Part shown: positions 1,828 through 35,260 of the stretch, piece after piece | How the letters are laid out: every line of letters begins with the position of its first letter | How positions within the stretch are numbered: the first letter of the stretch is position 1 | Notes under the pieces: model-generated | Databases searched by the model: none | Seen by the model: the letters and a program-made list of their open reading frames with translations, nothing else | Told to the model about the DNA's origin: nothing | Translations under genes and position numbers: made by a program | DNA from: Candidatus Agathobaculum intestinipullorum | GTDB lineage: Bacteria; Bacillota; Clostridia; Oscillospirales; Butyricicoccaceae | Length of the DNA: 56,926 nucleotides | Reading direction: 5' to 3' | Assembly: GCA_019117485.1 (NCBI GenBank) | Contig: DWZQ01000024.1 | Coordinates: 1-56,926 of the forward strand

Positions 1828-2985
1828 TCACTTATAGCTTTCCGCCAAAATGCCGACGATATCCTCGCGCGACAGCGGCCGCGGGTCAACGCGGAACAGC
1901 GCACCCATTGTGCCCATCGCGTTGTCGGCGTATTTGCCGAAATCGCCCTGCTGCACGCCGTAGCCCGACAAGCGCAGATCATGTACGTTGCAGCGCTTTT
2001 GCAGGCTGGTGAGGGCCGCAATGAAATCCTCCGGCTTTGCCGCGTCCTGCTTGCCGAGCGCACGCGCGATTGCAACCAACCTGTCGCCCGCAGACTCGAA
2101 AAAGCGGCTCCAATACGCCTTGGAAATCATAATCAACCCCGCGCCGTGCGGCAGCGCCGGGTGGAAAGCGCTCAGCGCATGTTCGATGGCGTGCTCGCCC
2201 GTGCAGCTGGACAGCGTTTCGACAAAACCGGCCAGCGTGTTCGCCAGCGCGACATCGGCGCGCGCCTGCCGGTTGCCGCCGTCGTGTACGGCGGTCGCGA
2301 GCGAGCGGCCAATCAGCTCGATGGCCTTCAGGGAGAATATCTCACTGATGGGCGTGGCGCAGGTGGCCAAGTACCCCTCAGCCGCGTGGAAGAACGCATC
2401 AAAGCCCTGATAAGCGGTCAGGTGGGGCGGCACGGTCATCATAAAGTCCGGGTCGACGACTGAGATGGTTGGGAAGCACTTTTCGCCGCCCCCGCCGATC
2501 TTTTCCTCGCCGTTGGTGATGACAGTGAACGGGTCAGCCTCGGTGCCCGTGCCCGCCGTTGTCGGGATGGCAACGATCGGCAGGCCGTCGTTTACTATGC
2601 GCTTGCCGCCGCCCGTGCCGCCGTGGACGTAATCCCACCAGTCGCCGTCGTTGGTTGCCATGATCGCGACTGCCTTGGCGGTGTCGATCGACGAGCCTCC
2701 GCCCAGACCGACAACAAACGCAATGCCCTCCGCACGGCACAGCGCGGCGCATTCGCGCACGCCTTCAATGGTCGGGTTGGGCTGCACCTTGTTGAAAACG
2801 ATGGTTTCATGCCCAGCCTCGGCCAGCGCATCCTGCACCTTGGCGACGTAACCTAAGCGGGTGGTCGAGGTGCCGCCCGTGACGATCAGGCCGCGCCCTT
2901 CCGGCAGGCGGGCGCGCGCGAGCTTCTGCACCGCGCCGGGGCCGAAAAAGATCCGGGTGGGCAGGTAAAATCCGAAGTTATCCAT
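1828..2985 (-). CDS. Iron-containing alcohol dehydrogenase
   Basis: NAD(P)-dependent, Fe-dependent group III alcohol dehydrogenase, probably in fermentative aldehyde/alcohol exchange or butanol-type chemistry (substrate inferred only). The 385-residue length is typical. The N-terminus MDNFGFYLPTRIFFGPGA is the family signature, GLGGGSSIDTAKA is the nucleotide-binding loop, and the metal-binding segment GEHAIEHALSAFHPALPHG carries the conserved histidines. The start at 2985 is chosen because AGGAGGGGACTAT precedes it; a longer frame reaching 3048 has no ribosome site. It stands alone. A hairpin followed by six T residues sits directly upstream of its ribosome-binding site, suggesting leader control. 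Confidence 0.92.
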   Translation of the reverse strand: MDNFGFYLPTRIFFGPGAVQKLARARLPEGRGLIVTGGTSTTRLGYVAKVQDALAEAGHETIVFNKVQPNPTIEGVRECAALCRAEGIAFVVGLGGGSSIDTAKAVAIMATNDGDWWDYVHGGTGGGKRIVNDGLPIVAIPTTAGTGTEADPFTVITNGEEKIGGGGEKCFPTISVVDPDFMMTVPPHLTAYQGFDAFFHAAEGYLATCATPISEIFSLKAIELIGRSLATAVHDGGNRQARADVALANTLAGFVETLSSCTGEHAIEHALSAFHPALPHGAGLIMISKAYWSRFFESAGDRLVAIARALGKQDAAKPEDFIAALTSLQKRCNVHDLRLSGYGVQQGDFGKYADNAMGTMGALFRVDPRPLSREDIVGILAESYK

Positions 2986-3002
2986 ATAGTCCCCTCCTTT
3001 TG

Positions 3003-3027
3003 AAAAAAGGGGGTCGAACCGACCCCC
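3003..3027 (-). terminator. Terminator-type hairpin in the adh leader (candidate attenuator)
   Basis: Read on the reverse strand, an 8-bp stem (3009-3016 with 3020-3027) is followed by six T residues and, a few bases later, by the adh ribosome-binding site. An upstream GCGTTTT/AAAACGC pairing (about 3037-3076) could compete with it. It is either an attenuator for adh or the end of an unseen upstream transcript. Confidence 0.6.
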
Positions 3028-3082
3028 GAAAGACAGCGTTTTCCCCATCGTGTGCGCCGGGTGTAAAACGCACCCAACAATA

Positions 3083-3110
3083 TTATTGTATCAAATTCCA
3101 TATGGCTTGA
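3083..3110 (-). promoter_or_regulatory. Candidate adh promoter
   Basis: On the reverse strand TTTCAA and TACAAT are 16 bp apart. The palindrome ACAATATTATTGT (about 3078-3090) overlaps the -10 region and could be an operator. Weak evidence only. Confidence 0.35.
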
Positions 3111-3182
3111 AAAGATGGGAAAACGCCGAAAGAAGGCTATTTCTTTCATGCAATTTACCCATCAAAAATCGTAAAATAACAC

Positions 3183-3211
3183 TTGACCTTGTGCAATATT
3201 GATGATATTAT
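3183..3211 (+). promoter_or_regulatory. Promoter of the large non-coding RNA
   Basis: TTGACC and TATTAT are separated by 17 bp, a near-consensus sigma-A promoter. Transcription should start near 3218. No forward coding frame follows for more than 900 nt, so the product should be an RNA. Confidence 0.8.
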
Positions 3212-3217
3212 AGGTTC

Positions 3218-4092
3218 ACAGAAAAGATAAGGGCAAACACCAAAGAACGTAAGGCAAGGGCCTTGCAAAACGGCGAAAACCCATTCTGATCTGTCAGGGA
3301 TTGGCGAAAGGCCAAATCAAACCGTCGAAAGGGGTGAGTCCAATGGTAATAGAAGAAGCATCCTACTGGTTCGCGGGACTCGCCGCGGCGCTGTAACCGA
3401 AACGATTAAGGTGATAGCTATAAAAAAGAGCGAGTTCCAAAGCAAGATCACGAACCGCCTGAAAAGCGCGATCGGCTTCTGAGAGAAGTAAGGAACGGCA
3501 CCTTTGAGGAAGCTATCCTCGCGAATAACCATCCGTAGATCATACTGACGATGCAAGCGGATCGAGGCAGCAGGAAAGTAAGGTTCGGACATGAAAGAAC
3601 CATGAAACGATGCGTCGGCGAATGAAACTGCATCCGTAACGATACCTGCCAAACAAAGCCAAAAATAGTGCGCATCCAATGGCCGATGGGCATACTGATG
3701 AGTATGATGCCGCAAAAGCGGATCAGAGCACAAGACAGAGATGATATCAAAACTTGCTGAAAGTGATCCGGGCCATGCAGGATAGAATCGAACGACCACC
3801 CGCCGAGCAAGAGACGCATCACAACTTCATATAGAGTTCCCGAATGTAAGAAAGGTAACCATTGCATATGGATAGTACCACAAGAACCGCAGTCGGGCGA
3901 CTCCCGTGAACGTAGGATGAAGGAAATTCCCATAAAGGGAAAACATTGATACGCCGGTAAAGGCTAAAAAAACAGGCTAAAACAGCACCGGCATGAACAT
4001 CCGGATGGTTTTGGTTCCCCCGGAAAAATCAAAGGAAAGGTGGAATTGCATATTTTACAAGACGAAGAAAGCAATCCTTGTCGGGATTTTTT
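3218..4092 (+). ncRNA. Putative large structured non-coding RNA (about 0.8-0.9 kb)
   Basis: This stretch has lower GC than its flanks, no forward frame of note, and A-rich linkers joining many short helices. Helices I can pair include 3254-3258/3262-3266, 3299-3305/3311-3318, 3333-3341/3376-3384 (9 bp with one G-U), 3476-3480/3484-3488, 3506-3510/3516-3520, 3566-3570/3646-3650, 3582-3586/3597-3601, 3609-3613/3630-3634, 3691-3696/3701-3706, 3719-3724/3765-3770, 3894-3897/3903-3906, 3927-3931/3937-3941 and 3953-3958/3987-3992. A 9-bp long-range match joins 3527-3535 to 4002-4010. The 3' end is uncertain: a weak hairpin with six T residues lies at 4073-4092, and a strong terminator at 4485-4512. 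Size and style resemble the ornate bacterial RNAs (ROOL, GOLLD, OLE), but I cannot assign a class by eye. Confidence 0.7.
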
Positions 4093-4484
4093 CCTCCAAA
4101 CTCCCTGATTCTTCCAAGGAAAACTGATTCGTGCATGTAAAAATGAAATTTCACAAGCCCTTTGTTATCACAAACGGAATTGGCTTTCCAAAGGAAATTG
4201 GCAAACCCATCATTTTGGATTTCCATAAATTTGGGCAGTCAAGTCACTTTGGCACATACCGTTTGGCAATCCGGAAAAGAGAACCAGTGTAAACAATCGG
4301 ATAGCTTCACAAACCTGTACGTTGGAACAGGGCAAAAAGAAAATCCGTACCCCTTTACAAATGGCAATAGCTATGACGTAAAATATCATATGGATGATCT
4401 AAGTGCATCTGGAAACGGACAGGAATCTACAATACGGCGGATACAATCTGCCGGGAAAAGAGCCTATATGGAATTTTGGAAGTA
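4093..4484. other. AT-rich stretch without a supported gene
   Basis: About 390 nt of roughly 41 % GC lie between the RNA and the terminator at 4485. Frames exist on the forward strand (ATG at 4143 giving 49 codons; TTG at 4162 giving 107 codons), but neither has a ribosome site or a recognisable motif. It may be the 3' part of the RNA transcript or decayed sequence. Confidence 0.4.
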
Positions 4485-4512
4485 AAAGGCCTCGTCGGGT
4501 GACGGGGCCTTT
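4485..4512. terminator. Bidirectional terminator
   Basis: A 12-bp stem (4485-4496 with 4501-4512, loop GGGT) has T-rich sequence on either side. It can end tepA on the reverse strand and the long forward transcript starting near 3218. Confidence 0.8.
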
Positions 4513-4538
4513 GTTGTTGTCCCAGACGGACGTGGCCG

Positions 4539-5237
4539 TCAGCCTTGCCCTGCCGCCTGCTGCCGCCGTTCGGCAATCATCTCATAAAGCGCCTCAAGCG
4601 CGTCAGACAGTGTGCCCACCGCATCGATCAGGCCGAGGTCGACCGCCTGCCGCCCCGAGATCACCGTGCCGACGTCGGCGGTCAGCTGGCCGGTCTCGCG
4701 CATCAGCTGTTGCAGCCGCTCCGCTGTAATCCGCGAGTGACCAGTGATAAAGTCCACAATGCGTTCCTGAATGCGCGCGAGGTACTCAAATGCCTGCGGC
4801 ACGGCGATGATCGTGCCGTTCATGCGCACCGGATGGATGGTCATAGCCGCCGAGGCCGCGATAAAACTCTTTTTGGCCGCGACGGCAAGCGGCACGCCGA
4901 TCGAATGGCCGCCCCCCAGCACGAGCGAAACGGTCGGCTTGGTCATCCCCGCAATCAGCTCGGCGATGGCAAGGCCGGCTTCCACATCGCCGCCGACCGT
5001 GTTGAGCAGCACAAGCATGCCGTCGATCTCTTCGGCCTGCTCGACCGCGGCGATCTGCGGGATCAGGTGTTCATACTTGGTGGTTTTATTCTGTTCCGGC
5101 AGCTCCATATGCCCCTCGATCTGGCCGACGATCGTGATGCAATGCACGGTGCCGCGCGTGCTTTTGGCCGTAATCGAGCCGGTTTCTGCGATGCTGCTCT
5201 CCTCCGGCGCGGGAATCATTGGCATTTCCTCGGACAT
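4539..5237 (-). CDS. tepA: TepA-like ClpP-family serine protease homologue
   Basis: 232-residue ClpP/crotonase-fold protein of the TepA (translocation-enhancing, YmfB) group, proposed in Bacillus to clear signal peptides or assist secretion. The oxyanion stretch [12 protein letters not shown] (about 77-88), the nucleophile segment [12 protein letters not shown] (Ser about 112) and [10 protein letters not shown] (His about 135) are all present, so it is probably catalytic. The start at 5237 has an AGGAGGGACTGCC ribosome site; an upstream extension to 5351 lacks one. It is divergent from the cyclophilin gene, sharing a 344-bp region full of DnaA-box-like repeats. Confidence 0.88.
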
Positions 5238-35139: not shown

Positions 35140-35260
35140 ATAACGATCCCCTGCGACTGACGGGACAAGGTGGAACGCAAACCACCGGGGAACAGGGGAT
35201 TTTACCAAAATGCCGTCCGTCTGGGCAGTGTCGCAGGAATACGCGATGCTGCCCTTTTTT
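35140..35260 (+). promoter_or_regulatory. ZTP (pfl motif) riboswitch with terminator
   Basis: Conserved blocks in order: CGACTGACGGGACAAGGTGG, AACCACCGGGGA, and CCGTCCGTCTGGGCAG. The P1 helix pairs 35145-35153 with 35193-35201. The last block also forms the 5' arm of a terminator (GGGCAG 35223-35228 with CTGCCC 35249-35254) followed by six T residues. ZTP/ZMP, alarmones of low one-carbon folate, should favour antitermination and so increase formate production by pflB. Confidence 0.92.

Follow-up and report, generated by a model that had tools for sequence, protein, structure and literature searches.

In dual-function RNAs of the type of RNAIII, SgrS/SgrT and SR1, a short open reading frame (ORF) is combined with a regulatory body, and in leader-peptide attenuators the translation of a short ORF alters the pairing of the RNA. 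VcdRP has been described as a dual-function RNA (PMC8672173), and the raiA motif, or ModT RNA, as a conserved structured trans-acting RNA in Bacillota (PMC11706538). Among the large structured RNAs, OLE has a length of about 600 nt (PMC9723947), an example of ROOL measures 659 nt and GOLLDs exceed 800 nt (PMC12286853). Additionally, 3161 candidate structured RNAs have been listed from human microbiomes (PMC8040213), and a fragment of the RNA described here may be among them.

The present locus lies in a window (the whole stretch of DNA analyzed, 56,926 nt, forward strand of contig DWZQ01000024.1, assembly GCA_019117485.1) from Candidatus Agathobaculum intestinipullorum. It appears to encode a large structured RNA that stands alone and is inherited vertically, and whose class is absent from Rfam and from the open-licence papers among the matches listed. 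The reading that we favor, tentatively and at slightly less than even confidence, is that of a large dual-function RNA of a new class, which probably acts in trans and whose micro-ORF is influenced by the fold of the RNA itself. The RNA resembles OLE, ROOL and GOLLD in its size range, many helices, conserved loops and poorly understood function, but has no match to their covariance models. ROOL and GOLLD belong to phages or tRNA islands, whereas the present RNA is core chromosomal and vertical; furthermore, a built-in Shine-Dalgarno (SD) sequence and micro-ORF like those found here are not mentioned for OLE, ROOL or GOLLD in the available text of PMC9723947 and PMC12286853. Like RNAIII, SgrS/SgrT, SR1 and VcdRP, it unites in one transcript a short ORF with a conserved, structured and putatively regulatory body; a conserved ORF with an apparent SD of its own, one of the marks of a dual-function RNA, was found, and by analogy the RNA may work, in broad terms, like those of the RNAIII type. 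However, the Agathobaculum form is much longer, and the ORF, of only 16-20 codons, contains the segment with which the SD pairs; the sequence relation was compared through Rfam alone. Like raiA/ModT it is conserved, structured and found in Bacillota, and presumably it also acts in trans, but the raiA model had no match in the window. Leader-peptide attenuators likewise have a short ORF, whose translation would alter RNA pairing in the present case too; the present RNA differs from them in having no gene in the same direction before its terminator.

The putative RNA gene and its chromosomal setting

An RNA gene that stands alone, with its own promoter and terminator, seems to occupy the region 3183-4512 (+). 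In the comparison of homologues, the promoter, the predicted fold, the terminator, a putative 5' translation start (SD GGUGAGUCC, AUG) and an anti-SD segment in the ORF were conserved. The features of the locus are as follows.

3183-3211 (+): sigma-A-type promoter TTGACC-17-TATTAT with an extended -10 (TG before the -10), kept in the aligned same-genus homologues
3217-4515 (+): whole RNA gene, about 1.3 kb in the window species, its start at about 3217 placed from the promoter
3231-3241 (+): GGGCAAACACC of the 5' leader, which can pair with the SD region at 3333-3341; identical in 20/23 aligned loci
3249-3266 (+): 5' hairpin with compensatory changes; pairs 3250/3265 and 3253/3262 significant
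3330-3341 (+): Shine-Dalgarno region AGGGGTGAGTCC, SD-like in 21/21 loci
3343-3396 (+): micro-ORF 1, 17 codons, MVIEEASYWFAGLAAAL*; 17 codons in 20/21 same-genus loci
3360-3389 with 3892-3918 (+): 5' and 3' arms of a long-range helix predicted by RNAalifold in the window's genus
3376-3384 (+): anti-SD segment GGACTCGCC inside micro-ORF 1, pairing with the SD or with the 3' arm, mutually exclusive
3451-3587 (+): helical domain, 3451-3478 with 3555-3587, in the RNAalifold alignment fold
3505-3521 (+): hairpin with loop AGCUA in most loci (AGUUA or AGUUU in 3/23); pair 3505/3521 significant
3672-3710 (+): three-way junction of an outer stem and two GAUG-loop hairpins, with compensatory changes over 36 loci
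3682-3691 (+): junction hairpin 1, GCC[GAUG]GGC, from the 36-locus comparison
3692-3705 (+): junction hairpin 2, AUACU[GAUG]AGUAU, from the same comparison
3719-3770 (+): covarying hairpin; pair 3733/3754 significant
3926-4440 (+): variable 3' domain, full-length only in the closest relative (L004)
4468-4485 (+): micro-ORF 2, MEFWK*, ending at the terminator base; in 16/16 loci with the 3' element
4485-4512 (+): intrinsic terminator of 12 pairs, conserved with the 3' element

A preliminary description of this DNA had proposed the promoter TTGACC-17-TATTAT, a GC content below that of the flanks with A-rich strands, and an isolated site between two reverse-strand genes. All three were borne out: the promoter is conserved across the genus, the gap has a GC of 0.40-0.50 compared with about 0.60-0.65 in the flanking genes and an A-rich skew, and its neighbors are, on the reverse strand, a Fe-ADH gene (1828-3048) and a gene like that of a Clp protease, which ends at 4539. 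Three neighbors received Pfam names (Fe-ADH, Clp protease, cyclophilin), all of them different from the partner protein of OLE. The end of the RNA had been set at 4092, which was wrong, as the conserved 3' element and the terminator at 4485-4512 lie beyond it. The predicted fold of 3218-4092 had -244 kcal/mol (z -3.2), a value reached by 0/20 shuffles. The 3' element GGAAGTAAAAGGCC and the terminator were located by pattern in 16/21 same-genus loci, where the distance from promoter to terminator was 832-1304 nt; in the Butyricicoccus form it was 325-349 nt (4/5 loci measurable). Between the divergent promoters, at about 3085-3180, an element like GAAAAGAGGGNAAA...GAAA, possibly a regulator site, seems by eye to be retained also in genera with another divergent gene. 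The sole Rfam match of the window at gathering level was a ZMP/ZTP riboswitch at 35143-35233 (+), with 60.8 bits.

For the comparison with relatives, g1 denotes Agathobaculum, g5 Butyricicoccus, and g9, g10, g12 and g37 further genera of the same family, Butyricicoccaceae, of the order Oscillospirales; L numbers denote loci, G numbers genomes and f numbers families of the order, f23 being a second family with the element. When the DNA was compared with 60 relatives, the region was found in 23/24 other genomes of the genus; G024 is without it, and G014 gave only 44 nt at a contig end. In the alignment of 23 loci (window included), high conservation extended over the promoter, the 5' leader and some 700 nt, followed by a variable part and then by the conserved 3' element. 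Covariance model R1 (3653-3782) matched 43/87 genomes and 8/15 genera at E <=0.01, some of them falsely, and model R2, made from short forms, matched 53/87 genomes. R2 was built on the MAFFT alignment A4 (7 sequences, L073 being the sole g9 member) because MAFFT had misaligned the g9 anti-SD in alignment A3. After reading the loci of part of the positive genomes, the RNA was counted in 6/15 genera of the family: 23/25 Agathobaculum genomes by R1 (own genome included), 6/6 Butyricicoccus genomes by R2, 7/7 in g9, 2/2 in g12, 2/2 in g37, and 10/12 in g10 by R2, or 11/12 with G033, found by pattern search. The R1 matches L068, L069, L070, L075 and L077, which lack the SD element, were set aside as chance, L071 and L072 being left out of that judgement. 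Among the R2 matches outside the family, 9 loci were opened; they looked like the beginnings or interiors of ordinary genes, apart from L147, through which family f23 was recognized. An exact 24-base pattern occurred in 44 stretches of named genomes, many of them Agathobaculum or Butyricicoccus and a few 'Eubacteriales' or 'Clostridiaceae', and its remaining matches, judged on the pattern alone, were scattered over unrelated phyla. The RNA seems to be single copy per genome, with the exception of G012, in which two copies on contigs C3 and C21 were observed, from either a duplicate or a mixed assembly.

The divergent neighbor was Fe-ADH in the window, in the other g1 and g5 loci (by eye) and in g12 (L192); asparaginase came next after ADH in g12 and, by eye, in A. 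massiliense (L108), and was itself the divergent neighbor in g9 (L089), g37 (by eye) and genome G073 of g10 (L190). At the g10 locus L191, the upstream gene was a D-Ala-D-Ala ligase instead. The ADH/asparaginase neighborhood shared across genera therefore points to one ancestral chromosomal locus. A search of phage and plasmid records with the region gave no match, and one exact 24-mer of the region was absent from viral contigs, so the non-phage location proposed earlier holds as far as these collections were searched.

Rfam models at the gathering threshold over the whole window gave nothing in the RNA region, and at E up to 10 (3050-4520) only five weak matches, all to other families, were obtained, the best with E 0.72. 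The models of OLE, ROOL and GOLLD (which we take to be RF01071, RF03087 and RF01998) and that of HEARO had no match in the gathering search of the window, in the relaxed search of 3050-4520 or in 12 loci including the family members L028-L030, L056, L058, L060 and L061. The raiA model (RF03072) matched neither the window nor 12 related genomes, and the control genomes for these 12 were also without a match. None of the candidates first named (ROOL, GOLLD, OLE, HEARO and raiA) was thus found by covariance model. A replacement of tmRNA (RF00023) or of 6S RNA (RF00013) was also rejected: 7/7 family genomes have a separate tmRNA and a separate 6S RNA, and neither model matched at the locus. No paper on this RNA was found in open-licence full text among the matches listed. 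The idea of a large structured RNA of no known class was sustained by the lack of an Rfam match, by covarying homologues and by its own promoter and terminator.

Fold and covariation

The RNAalifold prediction and the covariation analysis were carried out with 21 same-genus sequences, leaving out L005 (partial) and L014 (a near copy of L012). The fold comprised 178 pairs, among them the long-range helix 3360-3389/3892-3918. Under a tree-based substitution null, 6/178 pairs passed at E <0.05 within the structure (3250/3265, 3253/3262, 3505/3521, 3658/3773, 3675/3707 and 3733/3754), and the slid-structure controls gave 0, 0, 0, 1, 0 and 0 significant pairs. In a stricter whole-alignment test 0 pairs passed, and only 7/60 of the top-scoring covarying pairs fell in the structure. 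The power of the covariation analysis was low because the genus is conserved, both columns varying in 85 pairs, and GGGCAAACACC lay outside the test because it is too conserved.

A cross-genus set of 36 loci from g1, g5, g9, g12 and g37 (L074 left out) was used for the junction. Standard pairs were observed in 31-36/36 loci per pair of the junction hairpins, and the loops read GAUG in 35/36 and 36/36. In junction hairpin 2, previously delimited as 3691-3706, every pair was standard in 35-36/36 loci, with changes on both sides at 3/5 pairs. Pairs 1-4 of the outer stem were standard in 34-36/36, with up to four pair types, and the stem was poor in L076 (2 pairs); the arms of this stem and of the anti-SD were picked by best pairing and therefore their counts lean towards pairing. 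In alignment A4, the SD hairpin and both junction hairpins were 99% paired, compared with 28.6-47.6% when slid, and both sides had changed in 3/15 pairs. The compensatory changes support the three-way junction over the 36 loci, and the other helices more weakly. Covariation among homologues, which had been named at the outset as decisive for the RNA, was therefore present both as these compensatory changes and as the six significant pairs. Of the other helices first proposed, 3719-3770 covaried at 3733/3754, and 3953-3992 was kept, by eye, in the closest relative L004 but not elsewhere, the stretch past about 3925 being variable.

The hairpin 3505-3521 reads GAGGA-AGCUA-UCCUC; the palindromic AGCU in its loop could form a self-kissing loop, and the loop is also complementary to GAUAGCU near 3412-3419.

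The proposed translation start and its pairing

The preliminary description saw no forward reading frame of note. This was wrong, since the SD and ATG at 3330-3345 open a conserved 17-codon ORF, and such a phrase can conceal a conserved micro-ORF. Its start was the only conserved start with an SD in 21/21 aligned homologues (21 same-genus loci, without L005 and L014), the runner-up reaching 8. Among the 26/38 loci caught by the first pattern, the ORF had 17 codons in 19, 18 in 4, 16 in 2 and 20 in 1, and its stop codon varied (TAA, TGA or TAG). Between lineages, the similarity of the peptide was 7.45 in frame 0 versus 3.96 in frame +1 and 2.41 in frame +2, and 100 shuffles of the residue order gave 4.95 (sd 0.24); these values come from 28/29 chosen loci (L176 gave none, as its start reads TTTGG, and for L177 another copy of the element was taken) prefiltered to 15-21 codons, and are therefore no test of length. 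The variability by codon position within the genus was only 7/6/9, and the coding evidence for micro-ORF 1 is therefore moderate. Of the description of the locus as non-coding, the structured RNA stood, but the absence of coding is doubtful because the SD-bearing 17-codon ORF is retained throughout, and lineages resemble each other more in its frame than in the other two. A conserved protein frame, named earlier as an argument against the RNA, was found in part, being a micro-ORF of only 54 of about 1300 nt.

The sequence GAAAGGGGTGAGTCCAATGG at 3327-3346 resembles a translation start, and a version with one change precedes a 173-codon ORF elsewhere in the genome of the window. This ORF (L003 1517-2038; G000 contig C36 13096-13109) is HD-like by eye and has a near-identical 20-nt initiation region; look-alikes that share this initiation region were observed in other Agathobaculum genomes (L205, L208 and L213). 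L003 and the recurring 20-nt matches (query 147-167) were considered as a second copy of the RNA, and this was rejected, L003 being the 173-codon ORF.

At the other end of the RNA, micro-ORF 2 had the same layout in 16/16 loci: a GA-rich stretch, a short spacer and a frame of ATG, four codons and TAA that ends at the terminator. Its peptide was MEIWK* in 11/16, the others being MEFWK*, MDIWK*, MKIWK* and MEIWM*, and codon exchanges GAA/GAG and ATC/ATT were observed.

The anti-SD in the 3' half of micro-ORF 1 can pair with the GGUGAGUCC-type SD by 8 or 9 of 9 pairs in 36/36 family loci, as had been proposed for the helix 3333-3341/3376-3384. It falls in codons 10-13, in a reading frame that differs among loci, and the g10 loci L175 and L184 read the identical nucleotides CAGCAGGACTCGCAGCAGACTGG in two frames. 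Shuffles matched the anti-SD equally well in 0.55-2.2% of cases in six Agathobaculum loci versus 10-37% in nine other loci. Since the pairing is kept in differing frames, the 3' half of the ORF seems to be constrained at the RNA level, and the start as a peptide or initiation signal.

These observations bear on a serious, though rather unlikely, alternative, namely a large RNA similar in kind to OLE, ROOL and GOLLD and without any coding function, whose SD-AUG would be a structural motif only resembling a translation start. It would account for an anti-SD pairing kept while the frame changes (0, 1 and 2 in different genera), for the double reading of CAGCAGGACTCGCAGCAGACTGG in g10, for the several element copies in g10 with ORFs as short as 3 codons, and for the resemblance of CC-RAUG-GG to the CCGAUGGG hairpin. 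However, an ORF of 16-20 codons remains over many lineages with varying stop codons, the peptide starts are alike across lineages with frame 0 above the other frames, and a nearly identical start string precedes the 173-codon ORF of L003 in the same genome.

In the dual-function reading, micro-ORF 1 would be translated and the Agathobaculum form could mask its SD early with the anti-SD. After synthesis of the 3' part, the long-range helix would capture the anti-SD, so that access to the start would change during RNA synthesis, and a ribosome on the micro-ORF would keep the anti-SD segment open, making translation and RNA fold interdependent. In partition-function predictions of growing window transcripts, the SD/anti-SD pairing was 0.55-0.98 for ends at 3400-3800 and fell to 0.37 at 3880; when the transcript included the 3' arm, the anti-SD paired with this arm (0.88) and the SD pairing was lost. 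The captured state was predicted in 22/22 same-genus RNAs (L005 left out), and the masked state reached >=0.5 in 9/22 transcripts cut at the equivalent of 3560 (0.55 in the window), a local hairpin competing with it. In the full window transcript, the SD was predicted to be 64% paired with other segments (unpaired 0.36) and the AUG to be unpaired at 0.27. Since the full transcript keeps the SD largely paired with other segments and the masked state appears in 9/22, the SD/anti-SD switch is proposed as a hypothesis. The structured body would act in trans, probably as a regulatory RNA or scaffold, because its neighbors vary from genus to genus and it is followed by a terminator, with no cis target.

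Spread of the start element and meaning of the RNA

The pattern GGTGAGTCCNATGG was detected in 54/394 genomes of the order (69 matches, compared with 5 for the reversed pattern). In family f23, 10/11 loci with GGTGAGTCCNATGG opened an ORF of 16-20 codons, such as MDTESIQFQSAVCRACTSEQ and MDSEQFHSAVSRLLGCRC, a count that includes the same-genus pairs L196/L197, L203/L204 and L200/L253; L202 did not fit and L199 was unlike the others. The intergenic region is long around several of the f23 loci and contains a sequence resembling a promoter or a hairpin resembling a terminator. In the other families of the order, only 2/28 loci had a 16-20-codon ORF behind GGTGAGTCCNATGG. In a sample of the class, 25/391 genomes matched GGTGAGTCCNATGG, with 18 matches outside the order and 8 for the reversed pattern over the whole sample; 3/18 of those outside the order opened a 16-20-codon ORF. 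In the other families, GGTGAGTCCNATGG mostly opens ORFs of other lengths. A GGTGAGTCCNATGG start that opens an ORF of 16-20 codons within a long intergenic stretch appears to recur in f23, where the comparison covered the start element.

Within g10, exact copies of GTGAGTCCNATGG numbered 2, 2 and 3 within one locus in G067, G068 and G069, respectively, and further degenerate copies were seen by eye, up to five in one RNA, with ORFs down to 3 codons. Several SD-ATGG copies lie in one intergenic region at L188 4130-4600, L189 3450-3700 and L194 4934-5160, and very short ORFs behind such copies read, by eye, MGR*, MGTGELL* and MGVCIW*. Elsewhere, a holin-like small ORF MVTEYLLFLTLIFFILVTIKK was observed behind a different SD at about 1500-1600 of L141 (f42), and paired 39-codon ORFs (MGCLENE...) behind an GGTGAGTCCAATGG element in L241 and L242 (f24).

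An order-wide RNA class that conserves ribosome recruitment and not a peptide is an unlikely reading. Its SD-AUG elements and tiny ORFs would load ribosomes, and either translation would set the fold or the RNA would sense or hold ribosomes; it draws on the degenerate g10 copies, up to five, and on the MEIWK* ORF at the Agathobaculum terminator. We consider quite improbable a small mRNA with the peptide MVxE..QF as its product and the structured RNA as a long stabilizing or regulatory untranslated region. The peptide similarity in the N-terminal half and the SD in 21/21 loci would suit such an mRNA, but the C-terminal half tracks RNA pairing and not amino acids, 832-1304 nt are very long for 17 codons, and most of the conserved sequence lies outside the ORF. 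It is very improbable that the RNA is a leader, or an element like a riboswitch, that acts in cis on a neighboring gene: the divergent intergenic region is indeed conserved as a unit, but the RNA reads away from ADH or asparaginase and ends in a terminator, and in the loci read the downstream genes differ and have either orientation. A decayed protein gene or an antisense gene on either strand, suggested by a pair of reverse-strand frames in the window (160 and 161 aa), can practically be dismissed: these are open with their frame intact in only 5/23 and 1/22 aligned loci (window included), so that reverse-strand coding was rejected, and covariation and the conserved promoter also speak against it.

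There are few classes of very large structured RNA in bacteria, most of unknown role. The present RNA, which we favor as a dual-function RNA, is encoded chromosomally by gut bacteria that have been cultured, Agathobaculum and Butyricicoccus, genera that produce butyrate, and its natural forms include short ones of 325-349 nt and long ones of up to 1.3 kb. With cultured hosts, an apparent single copy, short and long forms and a built-in start, the function of a large RNA, for the most part an intractable problem, would therefore be directly testable in these organisms.
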